Assembly (NCBI RefSeq): GCF_003185805.1
Contig: NZ_QHJY01000147.1
Span: forward strand, 1 to 32,870
Source of the DNA: Caulobacter sp. D5
Lineage (GTDB): Bacteria > Pseudomonadota > Alphaproteobacteria > Caulobacterales > Caulobacteraceae
DNA length: 32,870 bases
Direction: 5' to 3'
Made by a program: the position numbers and the translations under genes. The stretch's first letter is position 1. Each line of letters begins with the position of its first letter. Positions 13,485 through 31,539 of the stretch are shown here, piece after piece. The notes beneath the pieces are model-generated. The model saw only the letters and a list, made by a program, of their open reading frames with translations. It made no database searches and was not told the origin of the DNA.

Positions 13485-14756
13485 ATGCGAAGGCTAAAGC
13501 TGGCTCTTCTGACCGGCGCCTATCTCTGCCTGGCTCTGATCGTCTCCCTGCTGCTGTGGCGCATGGGCGCGACCCCTGCTGTCGGCCTCTCGGCCTTCAT
13601 CGGGTCGCTGGGCCTGTGCTTCGCTTTCCACGGCATCATCAGCAACGTCTTCGACAACGCCCAGCTGAAGCTGGACATCGAAACCGTGCGCGAAGCCCAT
13701 TCCATCCTGGTCGAGCAGATCGAGAAGATCGACGCGCGCATGACCACCCTGGTCGAAACCGTCGCCGAGGACGCCGAGAAGCGCTCGGCCGAACTGACCA
13801 GCGAGGTCCACCAGCTCGAAGACCTGATGCAGCGCATGAGCGAGCGCCTGGAAAGCCAGCTGACCCACCAGGTCGCGGCCGCCCGCCACAGCGCCAGCGC
13901 CAACGCCCGCGTCGCCGCCCCGGTCAACGCCATGCTGGAGATCGTCCAGGACGCCCTGGCCGAGAACCGCGTCGATCTTTACCTGCAGCCGGTCGTCAGC
14001 CTGCCCCAGCGCCGCACCGTCTTCTACGAAAGCTTCTCGCGCCTGCGCGACGAGACCGGCCGCGTGATGATGCCGGCCGAGTACCTGGCCGTCGCCGAGT
14101 CCGAAGGCCTGATGACGGCCATCGACAACCTGCTGCTGTTCCGCTGCGTGCAGATCGTCCGCCGCCTGGCCAAGCAGGACCGCAAGGTCGGCATCTTCTG
14201 CAACATCTCGCTGGCCAGCCTGGCCGACGAAAGCTTCTTCCCGCAGTTCCTCGAGTTCCTTCAGGGCCACAAGGACCTGGCCGGCTCGCTGATCTTCGAA
14301 CTGGGCCAGACCGCCTTCAACCAGCGCGGCCCGGTCGAGGCCCGCCACATGGCCCGCCTGGCCAGCCTGGGCTTCCAGTTCAGCCTCGACAAGATCGTCG
14401 ACCTGGACCTCGACTTCCAGGACCTGGCCCGCGCCGACGTCAAGTTCGTCAAGGTCGGCGCCGAGATGATCCTCGAGCAGCTGGAAGAGCAGGACGGCAA
14501 GCTGGTGCTGAGCTCGCTGCCCGACCTCAACGCCGCCGACTTCGCCGCCCTGATGCGCCGCTACGGCGTCGAGGTGATCGCCGAGAAGGTGGAGAGCGAG
14601 CGCCAGATCGCCGAGATCCTCGATCTCGACATCGGCTACGGTCAGGGCCACCTGTTCGGCGAACCGCGGGCCATCCGCGACGCTGTGCTGGCCGAGACCG
14701 CCCCGCCGGCCGACTTCGTCCAGGCCCCGCTGCGCCGTCGCGCCGCCAACTGGTAG
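13485..14756 (+). CDS. tipF: TipF-like flagellar regulator, degenerate EAL c-di-GMP receptor
   Basis: A 423-residue membrane protein. Two N-terminal TM helices (about 5-25 and 33-53) are followed by a coiled coil (about 60-135) and a C-terminal EAL-type domain (about 148-400). The EAL signature reads Glu182-Ser-Phe. Asn240, Glu272, Lys320 and the GYGQGHLFGEP end are kept, but the DDFG-type metal motif is replaced by LDK (301-303), so it should bind c-di-GMP rather than cleave it. This is the architecture of Caulobacter TipF, a polar c-di-GMP receptor that recruits flagellar assembly factors. The ribosome-binding site is TAGGGA before the ATG. A hairpin terminator follows. Confidence 0.88.
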   Translation: MRRLKLALLTGAYLCLALIVSLLLWRMGATPAVGLSAFIGSLGLCFAFHGIISNVFDNAQLKLDIETVREAHSILVEQIEKIDARMTTLVETVAEDAEKRSAELTSEVHQLEDLMQRMSERLESQLTHQVAAARHSASANARVAAPVNAMLEIVQDALAENRVDLYLQPVVSLPQRRTVFYESFSRLRDETGRVMMPAEYLAVAESEGLMTAIDNLLLFRCVQIVRRLAKQDRKVGIFCNISLASLADESFFPQFLEFLQGHKDLAGSLIFELGQTAFNQRGPVEARHMARLASLGFQFSLDKIVDLDLDFQDLARADVKFVKVGAEMILEQLEEQDGKLVLSSLPDLNAADFAALMRRYGVEVIAEKVESERQIAEILDLDIGYGQGHLFGEPRAIRDAVLAETAPPADFVQAPLRRRAANW

Positions 14757-15440: not shown

Positions 15441-16190
15441 ATGACCACCGCCGATCCCACTCCCGCCTACCCCACCGACGAAGCCCGCTGGGCCGCGATC
15501 GAGCGCCGCGACCGCGCCGCCGACGGCGCCTTCTTCTGCGGCGTGCGCACCACCGGCGTCTATTGTCGCCCCAGCTGCTCGGGACGCCCGCTGCGCAAGA
15601 ACGTCGCCTTCTACGACACCCGCGAGGCCGCCCGGGCGGCGGGCCTGCGTCCCTGCCTGCGCTGCCGGCCCGACGAGCCGATCGAGACCCTCAGCTACGG
15701 CTTCGGCGAGACGCCGCTGGGCCTGGCCCTGGCGGCGACCTCCGAAACGGGCCTTGCCCTGCTTATCATGGGATGGGACCGCGCCGAGATGCGCGAGGAC
15801 CTGGCCGCCCGCTTCCCCCGCGCCCGGCTGGTGGAGGATGACGCCGCCGCCGGCCCAGCCCTCGCCGCCCTGGTCGCCGCCATCGACAGCGGCCGCCCGG
15901 GCGACCTGACGCTCCCCCTTGCCCTCGACGAGCGCGGCACGGACCTGCAGCGCGCCGTCTGGAAGGCTCTGCGCGACATCCCGGCCGGAACCACCGCCTC
16001 CTACGCGCAAGTGGCGCGCGCCATCGGCCGGCCCTCGGCCGTGCGGGCCGTGGCCCAGGCCTGCGGGGCCAATCCGGTCGCCGTGCTGACGCCCTGCCAC
16101 CGGGTGGTGCGCTCGGACGGCGGGCTTTCCGGCTACCGCTGGGGCGTCGAGCGCAAGCAGGCCCTGCTGGCGCGGGAAGCCGCTGCATGA
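15441..16190 (+). CDS. ada: Ada-type alkylation repair protein lacking the AraC domain
   Basis: A 249-residue protein. Residues 1-80 are the Ada metal-binding domain with the four zinc cysteines (Cys42, Cys46, Cys72, Cys75 in YCRPSC and PCLRC), one of which in E. coli Ada accepts methyl groups from phosphotriesters. Residues ~83-249 are the O6-alkylguanine methyltransferase, with acceptor Cys219 in PCHRVV and the GYRWGVERK end. The ~100-residue AraC helix-turn-helix that normally sits between them is absent, and the two halves are joined directly. It should repair DNA but could not act as the classical AraC-type activator. The ribosome-binding site is AAAGGAG. It is coupled by ATGA to the oxygenase downstream. 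Confidence 0.9.
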   Translation: MTTADPTPAYPTDEARWAAIERRDRAADGAFFCGVRTTGVYCRPSCSGRPLRKNVAFYDTREAARAAGLRPCLRCRPDEPIETLSYGFGETPLGLALAATSETGLALLIMGWDRAEMREDLAARFPRARLVEDDAAAGPALAALVAAIDSGRPGDLTLPLALDERGTDLQRAVWKALRDIPAGTTASYAQVARAIGRPSAVRAVAQACGANPVAVLTPCHRVVRSDGGLSGYRWGVERKQALLAREAAA

Positions 16191-16873
16191 ACCTGGACTG
16201 GACCCGCATCGCCGCCGAGCTCGACGCCCGCGGCTGGGCGACCACCGGCCCGGTGCTGACGCCGGAGACCTGCGGCCGCCTGGCCGGGCTCTATGCCGAG
16301 GAGGCGCCGTTCCGCAGCCGGGTGGTCATGGCCCGCCACGGCTTCGGACGCGGCGAATACAAATACTTCGCCTATCCCCTGCCCGAGACGGTGCAGAAGC
16401 TGCGGGCCGGCCTCTATCCGCCGCTGGCCCGCATCGCCAACGGCTGGATGCAGCGGCTGGGCGAAGAGCGCCGCTTTCCAGACGACCTGGCGGGGATGCT
16501 CGACCGCTGCCACGGCGCAGGCCAGGTCCGGCCGACGCCCCTGCTGCTGACCTATGGCCCCGGCGACTACAACTGCCTGCACCAGGACCTCTACGGCGAG
16601 CACGTGTTTCCGCTGCAGGCCGCCTTCCTGCTCGACGAGCCGGGGCGCGACTTTACGGGCGGCGAGTTCGTGCTGGTCGAGCAGCGCCCGCGCCAGCAGT
16701 CGGCCGCCCAGGTCGTGCCGCTGGCCCAGGGCGAGGGCGTGATCTTCGCCGTGCGGGAGCGGCCGGCGGAAGGCGCGCGCGGCGTCCATCGCCGGATCCT
16801 GCGCCACGGCGTCAGCGAGGTGCGCGGCGGAACGCGGCGTACGCTCGGCGTGATCTTCCACGACGCGGCCTGA
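16187..16873 (+). CDS. 2OG-Fe(II) oxygenase (Oxygenase-NA type), likely DNA alkylation repair partner
   Basis: A 228-residue protein with a double-stranded beta-helix dioxygenase signature. The iron ligands are His132 and Asp134 (CLHQDLYGEHVFPLQ), a conserved FTGGEFVLVEQ strand follows, and the distal His207 with the 2-oxoglutarate-binding arginines 217/218 lies in LRHGVSEVRGGTRRTLGV. I recall this family in Pfam as an oxygenase acting on damaged DNA (PF09859). The start overlaps the ada stop by four bases, which strongly supports a joint role in removing alkyl lesions, AlkB-like by oxidation. The exact substrate is not known from sequence. A palindromic terminator follows. Confidence 0.85.
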   Translation: MNLDWTRIAAELDARGWATTGPVLTPETCGRLAGLYAEEAPFRSRVVMARHGFGRGEYKYFAYPLPETVQKLRAGLYPPLARIANGWMQRLGEERRFPDDLAGMLDRCHGAGQVRPTPLLLTYGPGDYNCLHQDLYGEHVFPLQAAFLLDEPGRDFTGGEFVLVEQRPRQQSAAQVVPLAQGEGVIFAVRERPAEGARGVHRRILRHGVSEVRGGTRRTLGVIFHDAA

Positions 16874-16972: not shown

Positions 16973-18121
16973 TTACCAGGCGAAGCCGACGCTGCCGCCG
17001 CTCATCACGTCGCGGCCCGTGGCCGAGAAGCCGACGTTGTAGCTGACGGCGCGGCTGTTGTGCGAGTAGCCCACGGCGATGGCGCCCTGGCCGCGATAGC
17101 CGCCGACGGCCACGGCCAGACGGTTGGTCAGGCCTGCGCCCTGGCCGGCGTTGTTGGCGGCCATCATCGACATGGCCGAGCTCATGGCGCCGACGCCGTT
17201 CAGGCGGCTGGAGACCTCGTTGATGCGGTTGTCCATCTGGGTGGCCAGGGTATCGACGCGCCAGTCGGTATAGGCGTTGGCGGCGCTCAGAGTCGCGGCG
17301 GCCTTGGTGTCGGTATAGGCGTTGGCCGAGCTCAGGGTCGTGGCGGCGGTGGCCGTGGTGAAGGCGTTGGCCGTGGTCGCGGCGGCGGCGGCGGCCGTGT
17401 CCGTATAGGTGTTGGCCGTCGTCACCGCGGCCGCGGCGGCCGTGTCGGTGTAGGCGTTGGCGGTCGTCAGCGTCTGGGACGCGACGGTGTCGGTGTAGCT
17501 GTTGGCCGTGGTCAGGGTCTGGGCGGCCACGGTGTCGGTGTAGGTGTTGGCGGTCGAGGTGATGCTGGCCACGGCCGTGTCGGTGTAGGCGTTGGCGCTG
17601 GACAGGGTCGAGGCGCTGTAGCTTTCCAGCTGGCCCAGGTTCACCGCGTCGGTGCTGTTGACGCCGTCCGAGACGTTGGTGATGCGGCGGGTCGAGGTCG
17701 AGGTGCCGACCGAGACGGTGTTGTCCTCGTCGGCGACTGAGCCGTAGCCGATGGCGACGCTGTTGGTTCCCGTGGCGGAGGCGTAGGCGCCGAGCACCGA
17801 GCTGTAATCGCCGGTCGCCGAAGAATAGTTGCCGACGACGGTCGAGTATTCGCCCGAGGCCTCGCCGTGCGCGCCGATCTGGATCGCGGCCGTGCCGCTG
17901 GCGACGGCGCCGTGGCCGATCGCCAGGGCGTGATAGCCGCTGGCCGTGGCGCTGGCGCCCAGGGCGTTGGCGTAGTCGCCGCTGGCCGTGGCGTACTCGC
18001 CGACGGCGGCGGTGTCATAGCCCGTGGCGGTCGCGCCGGTGCCGGCCGTGGTTTGAGCAAAGGCGCCTTGAGCGGCAAAGATCGAGATCGCGATGGCCGA
18101 GCAGAACAGAGCCGACTTCAT
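16973..18121 (-). CDS. small trimeric autotransporter adhesin (YadA-like)
   Basis: A 382-residue outer-membrane adhesin. The signal peptide is residues 1-22 (cleavage after AFA). The head, about 24-135, is a YadA-type left-handed beta-roll of ~14-residue Ala/Gly/Ser repeats (ASGDYANALGASATASG). The neck lies at about 136-165 (RRITNVSDGVNSTDAVNLGQL). The stalk, 174-293, is eight 15-residue repeats of the type xxANxYTDTxAAxxL, followed by a short coiled coil. The C-terminal membrane anchor is about 300-382, ending in GGSVGFAW with the terminal aromatic residue used for outer-membrane insertion. ATG at 18121 is chosen over GTG at 18136 because it begins the signal peptide; no good ribosome-binding site is seen. 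Very short for the family; the upstream DNA is AT-rich. Confidence 0.93.
   Translation of the reverse strand: MKSALFCSAIAISIFAAQGAFAQTTAGTGATATGYDTAAVGEYATASGDYANALGASATASGYHALAIGHGAVASGTAAIQIGAHGEASGEYSTVVGNYSSATGDYSSVLGAYASATGTNSVAIGYGSVADEDNTVSVGTSTSTRRITNVSDGVNSTDAVNLGQLESYSASTLSSANAYTDTAVASITSTANTYTDTVAAQTLTTANSYTDTVASQTLTTANAYTDTAAAAAVTTANTYTDTAAAAAATTANAFTTATAATTLSSANAYTDTKAAATLSAANAYTDWRVDTLATQMDNRINEVSSRLNGVGAMSSAMSMMAANNAGQGAGLTNRLAVAVGGYRGQGAIAVGYSHNSRAVSYNVGFSATGRDVMSGGSVGFAW
17243..17602 (-). repeat. eight 45-bp tandem repeats encoding the adhesin stalk
   Basis: Residues 174-293 consist of eight consecutive 15-residue units, such as STANTYTDTVAAQTL and TTANSYTDTVASQTL, each encoded by 45 bases. 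Units 1-5 and 7 are the most alike; unit 6 (TTANAFTTATAATTL) and unit 8 have drifted. The 15-residue periodicity matches the right-handed coiled-coil stalk of YadA. Copy number could vary by recombination. Confidence 0.9.
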
Positions 18122-18423
18122 AGCAACGTTACGCACTATACTAACTCACTTACAAAACAGGCTCGGAATTCTTCCGCCGCCCCCTGTCGATGAGAAATAG
18201 TCGCCATTTCTTATTGTAAGGTGAATCGCAAATTATTAAATTCCGTAGATAAATTACCTACAATATCGAACACCGTTACTTCCCATTTTGAGAGAAATAC
18301 CTATCAACAGACACTGTTGATATCTTCGCGAGCGATCACCACATGCGAAGCGCGGCCGCGCCCTTCCGGCTCGCCGCTCGCCCGCCATTGACGCTCGGAC
18401 TCTCGCCCGGTACCCGCCCTGCC
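18122..18423. promoter_or_regulatory. AT-rich divergent control region between adhesin and HAD gene
   Basis: This 302-base gap holds no convincing gene. From about 18140 to 18330 it is clearly AT-rich by eye, unlike the rest of the window. It contains several inverted repeats: AGAAAT-N7-ATTTCT at 18193-18211, GTAG-A-TAA-A-TTA-C-CTAC at 18245-18261 (one mismatched pair), and a perfect 9-bp arm pair at 18302-18322. Promoters for both flanking genes should be here, but no consensus minus-35/minus-10 pair could be fixed with confidence. Confidence 0.55.
18302..18322. promoter_or_regulatory. candidate operator, perfect 9-bp inverted repeat
   Basis: TATCAACAG (18302-18310), a spacer of ACA, then CTGTTGATA (18314-18322), a perfect inverted repeat. 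Size and symmetry suit a dimeric regulator. It lies about 180 bases upstream of the adhesin start and 100 bases upstream of the HAD gene start. No cognate regulator gene is adjacent. Confidence 0.5.
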
Positions 18424-22919: not shown

Positions 22920-23063
22920 GCCTGTCGCGGCGGGTCGTCGCCAGGTAGAGCTTCCAGCGATCGCGACAACCTGCCGCACCTATACCTGGGCCAAATAAGA
23001 AAAACCGACGTTATCCTTGCTTTGTAAGGATTTCGCCAAGCATTGGCCGTCAGATTGCCGATC

Positions 23064-24281
23064 ATGACGGCCATTGCCTGCCTGCGTATCCTGCTCACCG
23101 CCGCGGAGACGGCGGGCGCCAGCGTTCCTCCTGCCCAGGTAGAGGTCGCGGCCGACCTTTATCTCAAGCATCGCTGGAAGGCCCCGCGCCGCTACGGCGT
23201 CGTCGCGCCCCTGGCCTTCGTGCTGGCCGACACCAAGGCCGAGCAGCTTGATCCCACCGAGATGCAGGCCCTGGCCATCGAGCTGGAGACCTCGCTGTTC
23301 CCCGGCCGCAAGAGCGGCCAAGTTTGTCTCATGACCTTCGAGGGCGACGAGAACGCCGTGCTGCAGTTCGCCAGCCTGTCGCAAGGCGAACTGGCGGGCC
23401 TGATGGCCGGCCGCGGCTATTCCGGCGCCCCGGGCCACGTGCAGGTGATCACCGCCGAGGAGATCCGCGCGGTGCCCAGCGCCCCCGCCGCCGCGCCCGA
23501 ACCAGCGCCCGCTCCTGCAAAAACCGCCGCCAAGCCGGCCGCCCCGATCCGCCCCATCGCCGCCGTCGCGCCGGCCAAGCCCGCCGCGCCGCTGACCACC
23601 GGCTGGAGCGCCATCTACCACCTGCCCGGCGAGACCGTGGTCGGCGCCCTGCTGGGCCACAAGGCCGATCTGGCCGCGCCGCGTCCGACCGAAGATTCCG
23701 ACCTGCTGGCCCGAGACCTCACCGGCCTCAACGACGCCCAGTTCGGCTTCCCGACGGTCAAGAACGGCGACGGCGCGCTGTTCCTGCCGCTCAGCTTCTG
23801 GAACCTGACCACCCCGGCCTCGCAGGAGGCCTACAAGCGCCGGCTGTCGCGCTTCCCGCTCGACCTGCAGCCGCGCCTGGGGGCCAGCGTCTACGACACC
23901 CCGCGCGAGCCCTCGATGGGCCTGCTGCAGCAGATCCGCGGCTTCCTGCAGGGCTCGTTCGCCTACATCGACCTCTGCATCTCCGATCCGAACTTCCCGG
24001 TGAACACCCTGCCGGGCGACATCGCCTCCAGCATCTCGCTGGAACTGGGCGAGGAGTCCGACGCCGAGCGGATCAAGGCCATCGCCCTCTTCGCCTCGCG
24101 CCAGTCGATCTATCGCGGCAAGGGCGTACGCCAGGCGGTGCTGGGCGTGCGCAGCGCCAAGGAGCTGGACGCCTGCCGGGCCGCCGGCCTGCGCTTCGCC
24201 GCCGGCCCCGCCGTCAGCGCCCTGCTCGACAAGCCGCCGGCCCTGGGCGCGACCCAGGAACTGCCGCTCCGGGCCGCCTAG
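23064..24281 (+). CDS. unknown-family protein, paralog 1 of 3
   Basis: A 405-residue protein of a family I do not recognise. Residues 1-136 form an N-terminal alpha/beta domain shared with two downstream paralogs: the MTAIACL start, APRRYGVVAP, FVLADT, LDPTEMQALA, FEGDE. A Pro/Ala-rich linker at about 138-178 is unique to this copy. The C-terminal domain (about 180-392) shares YDTPREPS, DLCISDPNFPV and FAAGPAVSALLDKP with the others. Its pattern faintly recalls the second half of an EAL-type barrel, without catalytic residues. ATG at 23064 is fixed by the conserved start of all three copies. No signal peptide or TM. An ATCCTT-N7-AAGGAT inverted repeat lies upstream at 23013-23031. Function unknown. 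Confidence 0.85.
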   Translation: MTAIACLRILLTAAETAGASVPPAQVEVAADLYLKHRWKAPRRYGVVAPLAFVLADTKAEQLDPTEMQALAIELETSLFPGRKSGQVCLMTFEGDENAVLQFASLSQGELAGLMAGRGYSGAPGHVQVITAEEIRAVPSAPAAAPEPAPAPAKTAAKPAAPIRPIAAVAPAKPAAPLTTGWSAIYHLPGETVVGALLGHKADLAAPRPTEDSDLLARDLTGLNDAQFGFPTVKNGDGALFLPLSFWNLTTPASQEAYKRRLSRFPLDLQPRLGASVYDTPREPSMGLLQQIRGFLQGSFAYIDLCISDPNFPVNTLPGDIASSISLELGEESDAERIKAIALFASRQSIYRGKGVRQAVLGVRSAKELDACRAAGLRFAAGPAVSALLDKPPALGATQELPLRAA

Positions 24282-24365
24282 GCGCACTCGGAAACCGGCG
24301 TTCGCGACGCTGGGTCGCAGCTGACCTATAACGCGTGATAACCTCGCTCGCGCAACCTGCGCGAC

Positions 24366-25562
24366 ATGACCGCCATCGCCTGCCTGAAGGTCTTCGTCGG
24401 GGACGATCCCGCCGAGACCGAGCGTAACGCCGCCCTCGTGGCCAAGGTCGCCGCCGAGCACCTGAAGACCGCCTGGACGGCGCCGCGCCGCCATGGGCTG
24501 GTGGCGCCGTTCTCGTTCGTGCTGGCCGATCCGCGCGCCACGCGGCTGGACGCCCGCGAACTCCAGGCCCTGGCCCGCGCCCTCCAGCACCGCCTGTTCG
24601 GCGACGACGACGCCGGCGAGATCGTCATGCTGATGTTCGAGGGCGACCAGCATGAAGTCATGCGCTTCGCCGGCCTGCCCGCCCGCCAGCTCACCCTGCT
24701 GCTGTCCGGCGAGGAGGACGCCTCCCTGGCCGGCCGCGTCTGCCGCATCACCCCGCGCGAGGTGCGCTCGGTCATGCCGATGGGCGGCCCGATCACCGGC
24801 GTGCCCACCATGGAGGCCCTGGCCCGCCTGTGCCCGCGCCCGCTGCCGGCCCGGGTGGCCTGGCGCGGCGTCTATCACACCGGCCGCCAGCTCTTCGTCG
24901 GCAACGTCGCCGTCTGGCGCGAGGCGGGCCACGCCGGCGTCGCCTACGAGACCTATGTCGACGGCCAGCGCGCCCTGCACGACATGGCCATCCTCAAGGG
25001 CGCGATCGCCGCGCTCGGCCCCAACACCGGCGTCGCCTACGTGCCGATCGGCTTTTCTTCGGTGCTGAAGCCCGGTCTGCGGGCCGAGCTGGAGAGCCGT
25101 CTGCGCGCCCTGCCCGGCGACCTGCGCGGACGGCTGGCGGCGGGCGTCTACGGCGTGCCCCGCGCGCCGTCCCTGGTCGCCCTGCGCCAGCTGAAGGCGT
25201 TCCTCGATCCCTATTTCAGCCGTCTGGACCTGCGGGTCAGCGATCCGGCCTTCCAGGTCGAGGACCTGCCGCCGACCCTGGCCGCCAGCATCACCTTCCA
25301 GCCCGAGGGCGACACCGAGGCCAACCGCCTGGCCGCCATCGCCCGCTTCCTCAAGGACGCCCCGCTCTATCGCCGCCGCCAGGTCTGGCAGGGCGTCAGC
25401 GACCTGCGCGGCCCGCGCGAGCTGGCCGCGGCCCTGGACCAGGGCGCCTCGTTCGTCAGCGGCGGCATGGTCACCGAACTGCTGGAAGCGCCGACCACCG
25501 TCGCGCCCTATCCGCGCGGCCAGCTGCCGCTCTACGGCTGGACCGCCGAGGCGGCGGCTTAG
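24366..25562 (+). CDS. unknown-family protein, paralog 2 of 3
   Basis: A 398-residue paralog of the flanking genes at 23064 and 26073, closer to the latter. Shared N-terminal blocks: MTAIACLKVFVG, APRRHGLVAP, FVLADPRATRLDARELQALA, FEGDQHEVMRFAG. Shared C-terminal blocks: VYGVPRAPS, FSRLDLRVSDPAFQVEDLPP, IWQG-type VWQGVSDL, and FVSGGMVTELLEAP. There is no Pro/Ala linker, only a short GGP-rich joint near residue 140. It starts 84 bases after paralog 1. CCTATAAC at 24325-24332 is one mismatch from the Caulobacter minus-10 consensus, so it may have its own promoter. Its stop overlaps the stop of the opposite-strand VOC gene by four bases. Function unknown; cytoplasmic by appearance. Confidence 0.85.
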   Translation: MTAIACLKVFVGDDPAETERNAALVAKVAAEHLKTAWTAPRRHGLVAPFSFVLADPRATRLDARELQALARALQHRLFGDDDAGEIVMLMFEGDQHEVMRFAGLPARQLTLLLSGEEDASLAGRVCRITPREVRSVMPMGGPITGVPTMEALARLCPRPLPARVAWRGVYHTGRQLFVGNVAVWREAGHAGVAYETYVDGQRALHDMAILKGAIAALGPNTGVAYVPIGFSSVLKPGLRAELESRLRALPGDLRGRLAAGVYGVPRAPSLVALRQLKAFLDPYFSRLDLRVSDPAFQVEDLPPTLAASITFQPEGDTEANRLAAIARFLKDAPLYRRRQVWQGVSDLRGPRELAAALDQGASFVSGGMVTELLEAPTTVAPYPRGQLPLYGWTAEAAA

Positions 25563-25963
25563 GGCGTCTCGAACGTGAACACCACGCTGTCGGCAGAGCG
25601 CTGGGCCGGGCCGTGGAACACCGCCTCGATGTTGTTGCCGTCCGGATCCCACAGGAAGGCGGCGTAGTAGCCAGGGTGGTAGGGCCGCTCGCCCGGCCCG
25701 CCGTTGTCGCGCCCGCCGGCCGAAAGGCCCGCCGCGTGAAAGCGCCGCACGGTGTCCTGGTCCTTGGCCTGGAAGGCGAGATGCACGTGGGTGGCCGGCT
25801 CGCCGGCGTCGATCCACAGCTCGTCGGCCGACAGGTGATCCCCGGCGTCGTCGAAGGGAACGCCCAGAGCCTCCAGCACCGCCCGGTAGAAGCGTTTGGT
25901 CGCCTCCAGGTCCCTGGCGCGCAGGTGGACATGGTCGATCAGCCGGCCGCGATGGATCTGCAT
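25559..25963 (-). CDS. VOC-family (glyoxalase/bleomycin resistance-like) protein
   Basis: A 134-residue protein of the vicinal oxygen chelate superfamily. Two beta-alpha-beta-beta-beta units are visible: the first starts LIDHVHLRARDLEATKRFYRAVLEALGV, the second around THVHLAFQAKDQDTVRRFHAAGL and ends with FLWDPDGNNIEAVFHGP. Likely metal ligands are His11 or His13, the His of THVHLAF, and Glu112 in NNIEAV. The substrate cannot be told; such single-domain proteins include lyases, dioxygenases and drug-binding proteins. It lies antisense between paralogs 2 and 3, and its stop codon overlaps that of paralog 2 (25559-25562). A ribosome-binding site (GGGAGGAG) precedes the ATG on the minus strand. 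Confidence 0.9.
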   Translation of the reverse strand: MQIHRGRLIDHVHLRARDLEATKRFYRAVLEALGVPFDDAGDHLSADELWIDAGEPATHVHLAFQAKDQDTVRRFHAAGLSAGGRDNGGPGERPYHPGYYAAFLWDPDGNNIEAVFHGPAQRSADSVVFTFETP

Positions 25964-26072
25964 GACGATCTCCTCCCCCGCCACAACGCGTCGGAAAGAC
26001 CGAGGTTCGTGCGACGTCTGGCCGCAACCGCATAGGCGCCTATCGGTAACCACCGCGCGCGAAGGTTGCTCC

Positions 26073-27290
26073 ATGACTGCCGTAGCGTGCCTGAAGATCT
26101 TCGTCGGCGACGAACTCCGTTTCGCGGACAACGACGCCATGGCCGCCCTCGTGGCCAAGGTGGCCGGGGCCTATCTGGAAACCACCTGGCTGCATCCGCG
26201 CCGCTACGGCCTGGTGGCGCCGTTCACCTTCGTCCTGGCCGACCCCCGCGCCACGCGGCTCGACGCCCGCGAACTTCAGGCCATGGCCCGCGACATGCAG
26301 CGCAAGATGTTCGGCGTCGAGGGCGACGGCGAGGTCAGCCTGCTGCTGGTCGAGGGCGACCAGGCCGAGGTCATGCGCTTTGGCGGCATGTCGCTGGCGG
26401 CCGTGCGGGCCCTGATGGTCGATGGGGCCTATCCCGAGGGCCTGGGCCGGGTCTGCAAGGTCACGCCCGACGGCGTGGTCTCCCTGGCCCCGCCCGGCGG
26501 ACCGGTGGCCGGCGAGCCGCCGATGGAGGCCCTGCCCAAGATCGTCTCGCGCCCCGAACCGACCGGCCCGCTGGGCTTCCGCGGCGTCTATCACCTGCAA
26601 CGCGAACTCTTCGTCGGCAGCGTCGTCGTGCACGCCCTCGTCGAGCGCCGCGCCTTCGACCAGGACGTCCACGCCGAGGCCGAGGACGCCGACGCAGCGG
26701 CCCTGGCGGCGCTGCCCGCCCTGCTGAAGGCCGACGAGGCCGGCGTGATCTTCGTGCCGATCTGCTTCTCCAGCCTGGTCAAGCCGATCGGCCGCAACCT
26801 TCTGACCGTCGGGCTGTCGGCCCTGCCGGCCTCGGCGCGCGGCCGCCTGGCGGCCGGCATCTACGACACCCCGCGCGTCCCCTCGTTCTCGGCCCTGTCG
26901 CAGATCAAGTCGTTCCTGGCGCCCTATTTCTCGCGGCTGGACCTGCGGGTGCGCGATCCGGCCTTCCGGGTCGAGGACCTGCCGCCCGACTTCGCCAGCA
27001 GCGTCACCCTCGACCTGCCCGACGCCGTCGAAAGCGAACGGCTGGCGGCCATCGACCGCTTCATGCGCGAGGGACCGACCTATCGCCGCAAGCGCATCTG
27101 GCAGGGCGTCACCGGCGTCTCACGCCGCCGCGAACTGCTGGCCTGCGTCGATCACGAGGTGCCGTTCGTCACCGGCCCCGAAGTCACCGACCTGCTGCAC
27201 GCCCCGGCCACCGTCTCGCCCTTCGCCCGACCGATGCTGCCGCTGCACGACTGGCACGAGGTGCAGTCGCTGGACCCGCAGGTGGCTTGA
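26073..27290 (+). CDS. unknown-family protein, paralog 3 of 3
   Basis: A 405-residue paralog of the genes at 23064 and 24366. Conserved blocks: MTAVACLKIFVGD, PRRYGLVAPF, FVLADPRATRLDARELQAMA, VEGDQAEVMRFGG in the N-terminal domain; IYDTPRVPS, FSRLDLRVRDPAFRVEDLPP, IWQGVTGVSRRRELLACVD and FVTGPEVTDLLHAP in the C-terminal domain. Paralogs 2 and 3 are visibly closer to each other than to paralog 1. A GAAGG ribosome-binding site precedes the ATG, and a perfect 12-base palindrome ATAGGCGCCTAT (26032-26043) lies just upstream. It is followed by the second REP-like locus and convergent mutL. No TM segments or signal peptide; function unknown. Confidence 0.85.
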   Translation: MTAVACLKIFVGDELRFADNDAMAALVAKVAGAYLETTWLHPRRYGLVAPFTFVLADPRATRLDARELQAMARDMQRKMFGVEGDGEVSLLLVEGDQAEVMRFGGMSLAAVRALMVDGAYPEGLGRVCKVTPDGVVSLAPPGGPVAGEPPMEALPKIVSRPEPTGPLGFRGVYHLQRELFVGSVVVHALVERRAFDQDVHAEAEDADAAALAALPALLKADEAGVIFVPICFSSLVKPIGRNLLTVGLSALPASARGRLAAGIYDTPRVPSFSALSQIKSFLAPYFSRLDLRVRDPAFRVEDLPPDFASSVTLDLPDAVESERLAAIDRFMREGPTYRRKRIWQGVTGVSRRRELLACVDHEVPFVTGPEVTDLLHAPATVSPFARPMLPLHDWHEVQSLDPQVA

Positions 27291-29465: not shown

Positions 29466-29490
29466 TTGCAAGGAACCGCCATTCTAGAAC
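29466..29490 (+). promoter_or_regulatory. candidate housekeeping promoter of the first GumN-like gene
   Basis: TTGCAAG (29466-29472), ten bases, then TCTAGAAC (29483-29490). The second element differs from the Caulobacter minus-10 consensus GCTANAWC at one position, and the spacing lies within the reported 10-14 range. The GTG start is 30 bases downstream. Confidence 0.35.
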
Positions 29491-29519
29491 GATTCCGAAC
29501 AAGCCGAGGACGAGAGATA

Positions 29520-30518
29520 GTGATCAAGCGTGTCGCCGCAGCCCCCGCCCTCGCGGGTTTCCTCCTGGCGCTCGCCGCCGGCCCCGCCCTGGCGCAGCAG
29601 GCGGTCGACGCCTCCGGGCCGATCGCGCTGCAACGGGTCGATCCCAACGAGAACCTGGTCGAGGAACTGATCGTCAACGCCCGCCTCCCCGGGCCGGCCT
29701 GGTGGAAGGTCAGCGACGGCGACACCACCGTCTACGTGCTGGGCGTGCCGGCCATGGTCCCCACCGACACCAAGGCCGAAGAGTCGGTGCTGCGCCGGCG
29801 GCTGGACGGGGCCAACGTGCTGATCATGGGCCAGGAGGCCGATGTCAGCGTCGTGCGCCTGATCGCCCTGGCCATGGGCGGCCGCAAGCTGTTCGTCTCC
29901 GACCGGCCGATGCGCCAGACCCTGCCGCCGGACCTGCGCCAGCGTCTGGAAGCGCGGCTGAAGGCGATGAAGGAAAAGCCGGACGCGATGGACGACACCA
30001 AGCCCGCCTTCGCCGGCTTCCTGGTCGCCAACAGCCAGGACGGCAATGTCTCGATCAGCGTCGGCGGCGTCACCGACCGCATCCGCGACATCGCCAGGAG
30101 CCGGGACCTGGCCAAGCGTCCCCGCATCCAGAACCTCTCGGGCTACAGCCTCGCCGACGCCATCAAGGCCCTGGCGACCGCGCCGCAGCCCCTGCAGCTG
30201 CTGTGCCTGGACGCGGGCCTGCGCCAGGCCGAGAGCGGCGAAGGCGGGATCAAGACCACCGCCCGGCGCTGGTCCGAGGGCCAGGTGCGCGACGTGGTCG
30301 CGGCCGATCGCGGCTTCCAGCGCTGCCTGGACTCGACCCCGTCGATCGCCCGCGAACTGCGCGACGGCCGCGACGACGCCGTCAAGGCGATCGAGGCGGC
30401 CCTGAAAAAGCCGGGCAAGGCCGTCGCCGTCATCGAACTGCGTTCGCTTCTGGCCCAGGATGGGGTGCTCGACCAGCTGCGGGCCAAGGGCCTGAAGGTC
30501 TCCACCCCGGACGAGTGA
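29520..30518 (+). CDS. TraB/GumN-like exported protein, copy 1
   Basis: A 332-residue protein with a signal peptide (residues 1-25, ending PALA before QQAVD), so periplasmic or outer-membrane associated. The start is GTG at 29520, chosen because it puts the basic KR residues directly before the hydrophobic segment; the ATG-like upstream frame would bury it. The segment PGPAWWKVSDGDTTVYVLGVP matches the N-terminal signature of the TraB/GumN/TIKI family, where WKVSDGDT(T/S)-x-Y-(L/V)-x-G is followed by the GxxH metal-binding motif. Here the motif reads GVPA, so the metal ligand is missing. The C-terminal part (AVIELRSLLAQDGVLDQLRAKG) also fits the family's end. Likely a non-catalytic member; function unknown. 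A second copy follows. Confidence 0.82.
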   Translation: MIKRVAAAPALAGFLLALAAGPALAQQAVDASGPIALQRVDPNENLVEELIVNARLPGPAWWKVSDGDTTVYVLGVPAMVPTDTKAEESVLRRRLDGANVLIMGQEADVSVVRLIALAMGGRKLFVSDRPMRQTLPPDLRQRLEARLKAMKEKPDAMDDTKPAFAGFLVANSQDGNVSISVGGVTDRIRDIARSRDLAKRPRIQNLSGYSLADAIKALATAPQPLQLLCLDAGLRQAESGEGGIKTTARRWSEGQVRDVVAADRGFQRCLDSTPSIARELRDGRDDAVKAIEAALKKPGKAVAVIELRSLLAQDGVLDQLRAKGLKVSTPDE

Positions 30519-30568
30519 CGCCCGACAAGTGACACGGGGCGAGTGACACAGGGTGAGTGACACGGGGC
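30513..30568 (+). repeat. four 14-bp tandem repeats between the GumN-like genes
   Basis: Units of 14 bases start at 30513, 30527, 30541 and 30555, with the form (G/A)AGTGAC(A/G)C-(A/G/C)(G/C)G(G/A)-C/T. The last three are nearly identical, for example GAGTGACACGGGGC. Each unit has one TGA, and because 14 is not a multiple of three these TGAs fall in all reading frames. The first TGA is the stop codon of the upstream gene. Confidence 0.85.
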
Positions 30569-30594
30569 GAAGGGCGCCAGGGAGGGAAGACATC

Positions 30595-31539
30595 TTGCGA
30601 AAACCGACCCTGATCCTGGCCGCCCTGACGGCTCTGGCGGCGGCCTCCGGCGCATGCGCCCAGGTCATCGACGACCCCGAGGCCAATGTCGTCGAGTCCC
30701 TGGTGGTCCAGGCCAAGCTGCCCGGCCCGGCCTGGTGGAAGGTCAGCGACGGCGACACGACGATCTACGTGCTGGGCATCCCCGGCAGCGTGCCCCAACG
30801 CCTGGACTGGGACACCTCGGTGCTCGACCGGCGGCTGGACGGCGCCTTCGTCCTGCTGACCCCGGCGGTGAACCGCACCCAGCTGGCGGACCTGCCCATC
30901 TTCCTCAGGACGCGCCGGCGGTTGAAGGACGGCTCGTCCCTGACGCAGGTGGCCCCGGACCTGGCGGCCCGTCTCGACCGCGCCTGGAACAGGACCCACG
31001 CCAGCGGCGATTGGCGTGACTGGAAGCCGCTGGGGGCGGGGCTGATGCTGGCGGCCGCCGCCCGCAACGACGCCAGGCTGACGACCAGTCAGCCGGACCG
31101 CACGATCAATCGCCTGGCCCGCAAGCACAGGGTTCCGATGCGGCCGGCGGCGATCTACGAGGCCACGCCGCTGCTCGAAGCCGTGGTCGCCCAGCATTCC
31201 GACGCCGCGGGCCTGGCCTGCCTGGAAGGCGTGCTGGACGAGGTCGAGGCCGGGCCGGAGCCCATACGCCGCGCCGCCCGCGCCTGGGCTGACGGCGACG
31301 TGCGCGGCGCGCTCGCGGTCCCGCGCCAGGGCGAGCGCTGCGCCATGGTCCTGCCGGGCGTCGCCGACCGGCTGCGCAAGAGCTCGGCCGCCCAGGTCGA
31401 GGCGATCAGCCAGGCGATGGACACGCCCGGCAAGGCGGTGGCGATCTTCTCGCTGCGCAGCCTGGTGGCCCAGGGCGGCGTGCTCGACACCCTGCGGGCG
31501 CGCGGCTTCAAGGTGACGACGCCGGAGAGCGCGAACTAG
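30595..31539 (+). CDS. TraB/GumN-like exported protein, copy 2
   Basis: A 314-residue tandem paralog of the preceding gene. The start is TTG at 30595, preceded by the strong ribosome-binding site GGGAGGGAAG and giving a good signal peptide (RKPTLILAALTALAAASGACA). The shared signature PGPAWWKVSDGDTTIYVLGIP is retained, and the C-terminus (AIFSLRSLVAQGGVLDTLRARGFKVTTPE) closely matches copy 1. As in copy 1, the GxxH motif of TraB/TIKI proteins is replaced (GIPG). The middle of the protein has diverged more. The two genes form an operon, with the 14-bp repeats between them. It ends ten bases before the convergent protease gene; a run of eight C separates the stop codons. Confidence 0.82.
   Translation: MRKPTLILAALTALAAASGACAQVIDDPEANVVESLVVQAKLPGPAWWKVSDGDTTIYVLGIPGSVPQRLDWDTSVLDRRLDGAFVLLTPAVNRTQLADLPIFLRTRRRLKDGSSLTQVAPDLAARLDRAWNRTHASGDWRDWKPLGAGLMLAAAARNDARLTTSQPDRTINRLARKHRVPMRPAAIYEATPLLEAVVAQHSDAAGLACLEGVLDEVEAGPEPIRRAARAWADGDVRGALAVPRQGERCAMVLPGVADRLRKSSAAQVEAISQAMDTPGKAVAIFSLRSLVAQGGVLDTLRARGFKVTTPESAN

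Follow-up and report, generated by a model that had tools for sequence, protein, structure and literature searches.

Three neighbouring paralogues at the mutL locus of Caulobacter sp. D5 are very probably degenerate GGDEF-EAL proteins

The 32,870-nucleotide stretch of Caulobacter sp. D5 DNA analysed here (the window) carries three related genes for proteins of about 400 residues. A first-pass annotation, made from the sequence, could place them in no family and proposed them as a candidate for an undescribed system. What are these proteins, from what do they derive, and what might they do? The paralogues themselves are real. All three are complete ATG-to-stop frames, and BLASTP aligns them over almost their full length, at 34% identity for copies 1 and 2 (E 1e-59), 35% for copies 1 and 3 (E 1e-62) and 53% for copies 2 and 3 (E 2e-127). 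The N- and C-terminal motifs by which they had been recognised are all present, and the proposal that each of the three proteins is built of the same two domains was borne out. The features are as follows.

23009..23041, + strand: conserved element upstream of copy 1, CGTTATCC..GTAAGGATTTCGCCAAGC, from 14 aligned upstream regions
23064..24281, + strand: copy 1 (P0001), very probable degenerate GGDEF-EAL protein, 405 aa; genus-level orthologue group at the locus
23472..23603, + strand: Ala/Pro-rich interdomain linker of copy 1 (about residues 137-180), from sequence and alignment
24366..25562, + strand: copy 2 (P0002), very probable degenerate GGDEF-EAL protein, 398 aa
25559..25963, - strand: VOC/glyoxalase-superfamily gene between copies 2 and 3, outside the trio family (Pfam PF00903, 3e-10)
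26073..27290, + strand: copy 3 (P0003), very probable degenerate GGDEF-EAL protein, 405 aa; the copy that was modelled
26073..26489, + strand: GGDEF-like N-terminal domain of copy 3 (residues 1-139), its GGDEF origin suggested by structure and position
26562..27257, + strand: EAL-like C-terminal domain of copy 3 (residues about 164-395), from structure, Foldseek/VIA-align 2 and alignment

The trio had been called a tandem array, which describes copies 1 and 2, adjacent on one strand with an 84 bp gap, but does not extend to copy 3, which is split from copy 2 by the minus-strand VOC gene. This gene is convergent; its stop shares 4 bp with the stop of copy 2, and its start lies 109 bp from copy 3. 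In the alignment, copies 2 and 3 have a shorter interdomain linker than copy 1. Searches of the own genome with copy 2 (E<=10) and with the family profile (E<=0.001) found these three matching places only. The conserved element upstream of copy 1 is presumably a promoter or other regulatory site. A promoter/terminator scan returned no sigma-70-type promoter site and two terminator-like sites, with 1.6 expected, and a sigma-54-like GG-N10-GC spotted by eye before copy 1 was rejected because it is not conserved across the upstream alignment. Elsewhere in the window, at 13485-14756, lies an EAL-domain gene that would fit a TipF-like protein.

Family libraries did not recognise the proteins. Pfam and NCBIfam gave nothing significant for the three copies, the best values, for PUNP (0.014) and Bflower (0.023, low-complexity linker), being far below cut-off, and Pfam found no significant match in 52 homologues. 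The Pfam gathering cut-off for EAL (PF00563) was reached by none of the three copies, the 52 homologues, ten distant relatives from the order and ten bridging relatives. Full-length yet sub-threshold matches to Pfam EAL were seen in L108 (1.8e-4), L109 (1.3e-3), L081 (0.0096) and L082 (0.015), and a sub-threshold match to GGDEF in the relative L107 (0.014). Among PDB sequences, alignment A6 had no match, and the only match of the family profile, a catalase at E 0.29, was dismissed as chance. Direct hhalign comparison of the trio family with EAL scored 21.9, barely above the maximum of 21.4 in 60 shuffles. Against GGDEF, neither the trio N-terminal domain (14.3, shuffles 17.5) nor A6 (19.1, shuffles 26.4) rose above shuffles; L095 and L096, the weakest GGDEF matches in this genome, were left out.

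Because direct comparisons with the EAL and GGDEF sets were indistinguishable from shuffles, a bridging family was needed. The trio family (A2) matches an alphaproteobacterial family (A9) with probability 98.9 and E 2.6e-17 in hhalign, an alignment that spans A2 columns 167-390 and thus the C-terminal domain only. A9 in turn matches the EAL set (A5) with probability 95.5, E 1.4e-8 and a score of 67.9, where 25 column shuffles reached no more than 14.7, and its N-terminal part matches the GGDEF set (A8) with probability 84.9, E 6.4e-6 and a score of 40.7, compared with 14.4 in 25 shuffles and 20.9 when reversed. These comparisons indicate that the C-terminal half of the trio is homologous to EAL, transitively through A9. 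A profile of seven members matched in 53 of 385 sampled genomes; of the 277 alphaproteobacterial genera sampled, 39 have a match.

The predicted structure of copy 3 (pLDDT 89, pTM 0.64) points the same way. In a Foldseek search of the PDB the model matches GGDEF-EAL structures along its length, 4rnh at E 5.0e-11 and also 5m3c, 9cmf, 6pwj and 3pjw, and all 50 among the matches listed are GGDEF-EAL or EAL proteins. Whole-chain TM values are low (0.34-0.41, rmsd 16-21; 0.34 for the match at E 5e-11) because the two domains sit differently relative to each other than in known structures. With VIA-align 2, the EAL domain of LapD (3pjt_A) aligns with model residues 164-377 at Z 17.7 and rmsd 3.4 over 208 aligned residues, and dual-domain PDB entries align from residue 1 of the model. 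An EAL-type barrel is the predicted fold of the C-terminal domain. The GGDEF origin of the N-terminal domain is less firm and is suggested by structure and position. The isolated domain model had no Foldseek match at E<=0.001, the best being 6tts (E 6e-3, prob 0.99) with other palm-fold cyclases closely behind, and its VIA Z was at most 7.8, with rmsd 3.8 over 117 residues, a level that can reflect a common arrangement. Since structure and transitive profile comparison both point to the GGDEF-EAL superfamily, the trio can be placed there, and we hold with high confidence that these proteins are GGDEF-EAL derivatives. The earlier statement that they match no family stands as far as significant Pfam and NCBIfam matches go; that they cannot be placed was wrong, and the supposed undescribed system becomes a degenerate form of a known kind and not a wholly new fold.

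The degeneration affects both domains. Neither the GG(D/E)EF signature nor ExLxR occurs in any of the 52 homologues, RxxD near the hairpin occurs in one, and the hairpin expected to carry GGDEF reads VAPF in copy 3. When EAL residues are mapped through the alignment and the order of strands rather than by superposing coordinates, the catalytic N is P in 46 of the 52, the E of ExTE is T, S, A or G in 45, the catalytic K is T in 44, the E of AEGVE is Q in 44, and the Q of QG is S or T in 39 and retained in 7; most catalytic EAL positions have apparently been replaced. Column 295 is Asp or Glu in 51 homologues, possibly a metal ligand that has survived. At column 188, 38 of the 52 have an Arg that may, judged by spacing, be the R of ExLxR; copy 2 has R there, copy 1 K and copy 3 A. 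Six homologues carry an acidic residue within columns 183-187. With these residues, the family may still bind a ligand.

How does the trio compare with characterised proteins? It shares domain order and, less firmly for the N-terminal domain, predicted folds with the GGDEF-EAL proteins of c-di-GMP turnover (PF00990 plus PF00563), with structural matches along the chain and an EAL half profile-homologous through the bridging family; unlike them, it has neither the GGDEF signature nor ExLxR and stays below Pfam cut-offs. YdiV/STM1697 and CsrD are gammaproteobacterial and Pfam-recognisable; YdiV is EAL-only, unlike the two-domain trio, and CsrD is a degenerate GGDEF-EAL protein. According to excerpts of PMC10333796 they are catalytically dead EAL derivatives with another role, as the trio may be. 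These inactive EAL or GGDEF-EAL proteins act by protein or RNA contact, and the likeness proposed for the trio is one of function. LapD and FimX are doubly degenerate GGDEF-EAL modules, as the trio appears to be, and rank with the closest structural matches to the copy 3 EAL-like domain (Z 17.7 and 16.9), tied with active phosphodiesterases. LapD, a membrane receptor, contains a HAMP domain, and FimX carries PAS/REC domains. Both bind c-di-GMP via ExLxR, as stated in excerpts of PMC10333796, whereas the trio lacks this motif and no added domain was recognised in it. TipF (CC0710) and PopA (CC1842) of C. crescentus, from the same genus as the trio, are enzymatically inactive GGDEF/EAL-family proteins (PMC3764195, in extract). 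Both belong to the GGDEF/EAL set already known, and they bind c-di-GMP, whereas the trio has neither a family match nor the binding motifs.

The reading that we favour, with moderate confidence, is that of a doubly degenerate GGDEF-EAL family, probably non-enzymatic, that acts by protein contacts. Both domains of an ancestral GGDEF-EAL protein would have lost their signatures, leaving a GGDEF-like domain followed by an EAL-type barrel that most likely neither makes nor hydrolyses c-di-GMP. More tentatively, the family may consist of adaptors working through protein-protein contact in the manner of YdiV and CsrD. The usual partner would be a signalling protein, with a histidine kinase as the likeliest case and a canonical GGDEF-EAL enzyme as a rarer one, and we presume a partner for the window's own copies.

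Copy 1 is the genus-level orthologue at a locus where one to four copies lie between a GNAT gene and mutL. A mosaic origin or domain swap, raised by split tblastn matches in L029, L031, L032 and L035, was rejected because these copies fall into the copy-1 group in both the N-domain tree, which took in non-coding frames of outgroup loci, and the C-domain tree, which left out these frames and four near-duplicate loci; the split matches are due to the variable interdomain linker. A C. vibrioides genome (L040) has two family members flanked by the GNAT gene and mutL. In C. crescentus, the copies are presumably CC_0692-0694 (CCNA_00728-00730), taking mutL as CC0695 and GumN as CC_0696, and no paper on these genes or on an unannotated GGDEF-EAL family was among the matches listed for the open-access literature.

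An alternative is that the EAL-like domain binds c-di-GMP without hydrolysis, as in TipF, LapD or FimX, the copies serving different targets. The structural matches to LapD and FimX, tied with those to active phosphodiesterases, and the frequent residues at columns 188 and 295 would suit such a receptor, as would the precedent of PopA and TipF, enzymatically inactive proteins that Caulobacter already employs (PMC3764195, in extract), TipF binding c-di-GMP without degrading it (excerpt of PMC7987155). However, ExLxR, absent from all 52 homologues, is called determinative for c-di-GMP binding in catalytically inactive EAL domains in excerpts of PMC10333796, RxxD near the hairpin is absent from 51, and both R and K are missing from column 188 of copy 3; we consider a receptor role unlikely.

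The first-pass annotation had suggested that the copies might form a hetero-oligomer or might sense different signals. In the former case, two or three co-located copies would assemble via the EAL dimer face, and one copy would modulate another: 15 of 16 same-genus genomes with a match hold two or three copies, and the mutL locus often has at least two copies together. Against this, copy number there varies from 1 to 4, single copies occur there (e.g. L018, L019, L021, L023) and at unlinked places, and co-transcription of copy 3 with copies 1 and 2 is improbable because copy 3 lies past a convergent gene, so that a hetero-oligomer seems very unlikely. The copies could instead be remnants of a formerly active GGDEF-EAL gene that is on its way to being lost. 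They evolve faster than several neighbours: between close species the trio proteins are 80-90% identical, compared with 93-99% for RibF, ACAD, GNAT and MutL (tblastn), and some relatives are disrupted, with one in-frame stop each in G176 and G116 and a split frame in L036. However, the neighbours VOC, TraB1, HAD and YadA diverge as fast as the trio or faster, 14 positions are invariant across the 52 homologues, and orthologous copy 1 is kept genus-wide. Furthermore, 10 orthologous pairs tested have no internal stops, and dN/dS is 0.22-0.37 at dS 0.23-0.33 in 7 close pairs, which shows computationally that close orthologues are under purifying selection. Because these pairs are intact with such ratios, the copies are judged to be retained, as the first-pass annotation had supposed, and we regard decay as extremely improbable.

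Returning to non-enzymatic adaptors, a role on kinases is suggested by gene neighbourhoods: histidine kinase genes stand next to some of the alphaproteobacterial relatives, and Caulobacterales relatives outside the mutL locus frequently have kinase or GGDEF-EAL genes close by. Of 49 alphaproteobacterial loci, 10, from 7 of 33 genera, have a kinase gene within 500 bp and 39 have none, a linkage spotted post hoc: the first ten loci supply 7 of these 10, and the later 39 give 3 (Poisson p 0.003), loci within genera not being independent. Among 47 loci, a kinase or GGDEF-EAL gene flanks 8 of the 13 that have neither the window's GNAT nor its MutL gene and 1 of the 34 that have either, these 34 being largely one homologous locus; 33 of them have no kinase in the flanks. 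No kinase was found among the window's open reading frames scanned with Pfam, and the neighbour of the two scanned f4-family relatives, L097 and L101, is a prolyl oligopeptidase gene rather than a kinase. A wider proposal, which we rate as rather unlikely, is a hidden class of GGDEF-EAL pseudoenzymes across the Alphaproteobacteria, many of them histidine-kinase adaptors, of which the Caulobacter mutL-locus copies would be orphan, multiplied members. In members beside kinase genes, the dead GGDEF-EAL module would give the kinase a scaffold for docking and allosteric control.

Caulobacter is a main model for c-di-GMP cell-cycle control. In C. crescentus 14 GGDEF/EAL proteins have been counted, according to excerpts of PMC3764195. 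Because C. vibrioides L040 carries two family members, the model species very probably has GGDEF-EAL superfamily relatives that no family model flags, and these would persist in strains built without all c-di-GMP enzymes. If the wider proposal is true, part of the c-di-GMP machinery has been repurposed as a two-component regulator. The kinase genes beside some family members provide a directly testable hypothesis of how signalling enzymes become adaptors.

The first-pass annotation had proposed three protein genes here as a tandem array of a family that it could not place. All three are real at the positions it gave, and the motifs that it listed were found in their sequences. Copies 1 and 2 lie 84 bp apart; the description as a tandem array requires correction because a VOC-family gene separates copies 2 and 3.

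Genes discussed in the text
13485-14756, + strand, protein with one EAL domain (Pfam EAL 1.9e-41), some 8 kb upstream of the trio
23064-24281, + strand, copy 1 (405 aa)
24366-25562, + strand, copy 2 (398 aa)
25559-25963, convergent, VOC-family gene between copies 2 and 3
26073-27290, + strand, copy 3 (405 aa)

The three proteins are paralogous along nearly their full length (34% identity for copies 1/2, 35% for 1/3 and 53% for 2/3), and a search of their own genome gave no fourth copy. One scan of genome contigs yielded 47 loci, the majority titled Caulobacter and the remainder Phenylobacterium, Brevundimonas or, in a few cases, MAGs with less exact names. Together with the window's own these hold 83 family reading frames, a count that includes the window copies more than once since L001-L003 overlap; 78 are full-length. 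Dropping frames more than 85% identical left 52 homologues, whose alignment (A2) has 14 invariant positions. The earlier remark that no known family is matched held at the level of libraries: neither Pfam nor NCBIfam gave a significant match for the trio, nor did Pfam for any of the 52 homologues (best E 0.023). Structure and profile comparison nevertheless place the family, which is very probably a GGDEF-EAL derivative.

An AlphaFold2 model of copy 3 built on A2 had a mean pLDDT of 89 and a modest pTM of 0.64, so that the relative placing of its two domains is uncertain. Foldseek returned 100 PDB chains at E<=0.001, the best 50 all being GGDEF-EAL or EAL proteins (top 4rnh, 5.0e-11); whole-chain TM-scores to dual-domain entries reached only 0.34-0.41 (rmsd 16-21), the low values that a different placing of two domains would give. 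In VIA-align 2 the LapD EAL domain aligned on model residues 164-377 (Z 17.7, rmsd 3.4, 208 aligned), tied with active phosphodiesterases, and dual-domain entries aligned from residue 1. When the N-terminal domain was modelled alone (pLDDT 84.5), Foldseek against the PDB gave no match at E<=0.001; the first was 6tts, the GGDEF domain of Caulobacter DgcB (E 6e-3, prob 0.99), and VIA Z for this domain did not exceed 7.8. Taken alone this is suggestive and not decisive, because the next matches, close behind, are nucleotidyl cyclases that share the palm fold.

Profile comparison, judged against column shuffles, provides a bridge. Directly, A2 scored 21.9 against the seven EAL domains of its own genome, hardly above the best of 60 shuffles (21.4). 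Compared with GGDEF, the N-domain scored 14.3 (17.5 for the best shuffle) and A6, seven distant homologues of the same order, 19.1 (26.4 for the best shuffle), so that neither stood out. A6 matched A2 at 2.6e-12 and EAL at 7.7e-4 (score 34.4; maximum of 60 shuffles 21.6), and two of its members have sub-threshold Pfam EAL matches along their full length (0.0096, 0.015). Of 385 sampled alphaproteobacterial genomes, 53 were matched when A6 served as a profile, a figure that includes the own genome and some matches to one domain only. Adding ten of these relatives to A6 gave A9, which matched A2 at 2.6e-17, EAL at 1.4e-8 (score 67.9; maximum of 25 shuffles 14.7, reversed 12.2) and, with its N-terminal part, GGDEF at 6.4e-6 (score 40.7; maximum of 25 shuffles 14.4, reversed 20.9). 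Because the A9-A2 alignment extends over the C-terminal domain only, the GGDEF assignment of the trio's N-domain rests on structure and position. Five of the ten relatives have sub-threshold Pfam EAL matches (L102, L104 and L105 partial; L108, 1.8e-4, and L109, 1.3e-3, full length) and two have GGDEF matches that are likewise sub-threshold (L107, 0.014; L108, 0.11). L112-L161 hold 54 A9-family frames, a set in which the members of A9 and three fragments from L135 are counted; at E<1e-6 the A2 profile matched 23 of them and our small EAL and GGDEF profiles none. Two A9-family genes lie in tandem in another alphaproteobacterium (L121, 4148-7461), and likewise in L143, so that the family has duplicated in tandem in other genera than Caulobacter as well.

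The signature motifs are lost. GG(D/E)EF and ExLxR occur in none of the 52 homologues, and RxxD near the hairpin in one; six have an acid somewhere in columns 183-187, the strand of the EAL motif. With EAL catalytic positions assigned from alignment and strand order, not superposed coordinates, the catalytic N is P in 46/52, K is T in 44/52, the first E of ExTE is T/S/A/G in 45/52, the E of AEGVE is Q in 44/52, and the Q of QG is S/T in 39/52 and retained in 7/52. Column 295, Asp or Glu in 51/52, may be a surviving catalytic position, and the Arg of column 188 (38/52) may be the R of ExLxR. Because these motifs and positions are replaced, we infer that the family would be without catalysis.

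The genes are maintained, with dN/dS of 0.22-0.37 at dS 0.23-0.33 in seven close orthologue pairs; three more distant copy-1 pairs gave 0.41-0.69 at dS 0.59-0.65, values on which we place no reading. Internal stops were absent from all ten pairs. By tblastn, the trio is 80-90% identical in close species, below RibF, ACAD, GNAT and MutL (93-99%) and no lower than VOC, TraB1, HAD and YadA (46-94%). Across the order, 31 of 299 sampled genomes matched: 16 of the 19 listed from the same genus (3 genomes with three copies, 12 with two and 1 with a single copy), 3 of the family but outside the genus, and 12 distant genomes from two further families. In a C-domain tree copy 1 forms a single group across Caulobacter, located between a GNAT gene and mutL, and the window's copies 2 and 3 fall in another, larger group in which individual lineages have duplications of their own. 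Copy number at this mutL locus ranges from one to four (four in L028).

Upstream of copy 1 a conserved element (23009-23041) spans the stretch from 55 to 23 bp ahead of the ATG; in close species it contains an ATCCTT-N7-AAGGAT inverted repeat, and parts of its right half (GTAA.GA.TTCGCCAAGC) are conserved further out. A different upstream pattern is common to copies 2 and 3 (24299-24343 and 26010-26051; GCGACG.CTGG.(T/C)CGCA-like ... TAACC). Recognised genes near the trio include PheS, FeoB, Ada, RibF, acyl-CoA dehydrogenase and MutL. Also present are an alkylation-repair pair (15441-16873, +), in which an Ada-type methyltransferase gene overlaps an Oxygenase-NA (oxidative DNA demethylation) family gene by 4 bp; a short trimeric autotransporter adhesin with YadA head, stalk and anchor (16973-18136, -); and two successive TraB/PrgY/GumN-family genes adjoining mutL (29466-31539, +), retained in many fetched Caulobacter loci. 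In the single-EAL-domain protein D-K replaces the DD motif; from its position near mutL it may be the TipF of Caulobacter.

Those window ORFs that were scanned gave no histidine kinase. Of the 47 loci, 13 lack both the GNAT and the MutL gene of the window, and in 8 of these the fetched flank holds a gene for a histidine kinase or a canonical GGDEF-EAL protein; among the remaining 34, for the most part copies of a single homologous locus, only 1 does. L037 and L041 have nearly the same surroundings. In L039 (Phenylobacterium aquaticum) an MHYT-PAS-GGDEF-EAL gene is immediately upstream of the homologue, which is followed after about 200 bp by a hybrid kinase; L038 has a convergent GGDEF-EAL gene at about 20 bp, L099 a same-strand kinase about 110 bp downstream, and L033, L034, L037, L041 and L049 a kinase at 1 kb or more. 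Among 49 alphaproteobacterial loci, drawn from genomes matched by the A6 profile, 10, from 7 of the 33 genera, have a kinase gene no more than 500 bp away. Within that distance lie 13 kinases, 8 of them on the homologue's strand, where 0.31 would be expected; the 471 kb farther out hold 3. Of the 10 loci, seven are among the first ten, viewed before the test, and three among the 39 fetched later (p 0.003). The direction of the linkage outweighs the p-value, because the Poisson calculation takes no account of relatedness and assumes a low local density of kinases, and because the nine kinases behind the kinase profile came from these loci and those of Caulobacterales. Homologue and kinase open frames, taken as ORF limits and not start codons, abut in L117 and L118 and overlap in L120. 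Both scanned f4-family relatives have a prolyl oligopeptidase (S9) gene immediately 3' of the homologue (L097, 4337-6445; L101, 7238-9289).

Inactive derivatives of GGDEF-EAL proteins already form a recognised kind: according to excerpts of PMC10333796, YdiV and STM1697 have no catalysis and no c-di-GMP binding yet contact transcription factors, and CsrD promotes small-RNA decay. PopA and TipF are inactive members in Caulobacter, according to excerpts of PMC3764195, PMC7987155 and PMC10212136, the first of which counts 14 GGDEF/EAL proteins in C. crescentus. Since excerpts give mutL as CC0695 (PMC1839093) or CCNA_00731 (PMC8034640) and a GumN-family gene as CC_0696 (PMC3073932), the C. crescentus copies should be at about CC_0693-0694; a search of open-access papers found none that gives their gene numbers, and no description of the family among the matches listed. 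Reception of c-di-GMP by the trio ranks second as a mechanism and is unlikely. The family is a previously unflagged variant within this recognised kind, and the most likely mechanism, which we propose tentatively on indirect genomic support, is that its members would be adaptors acting on signalling proteins.
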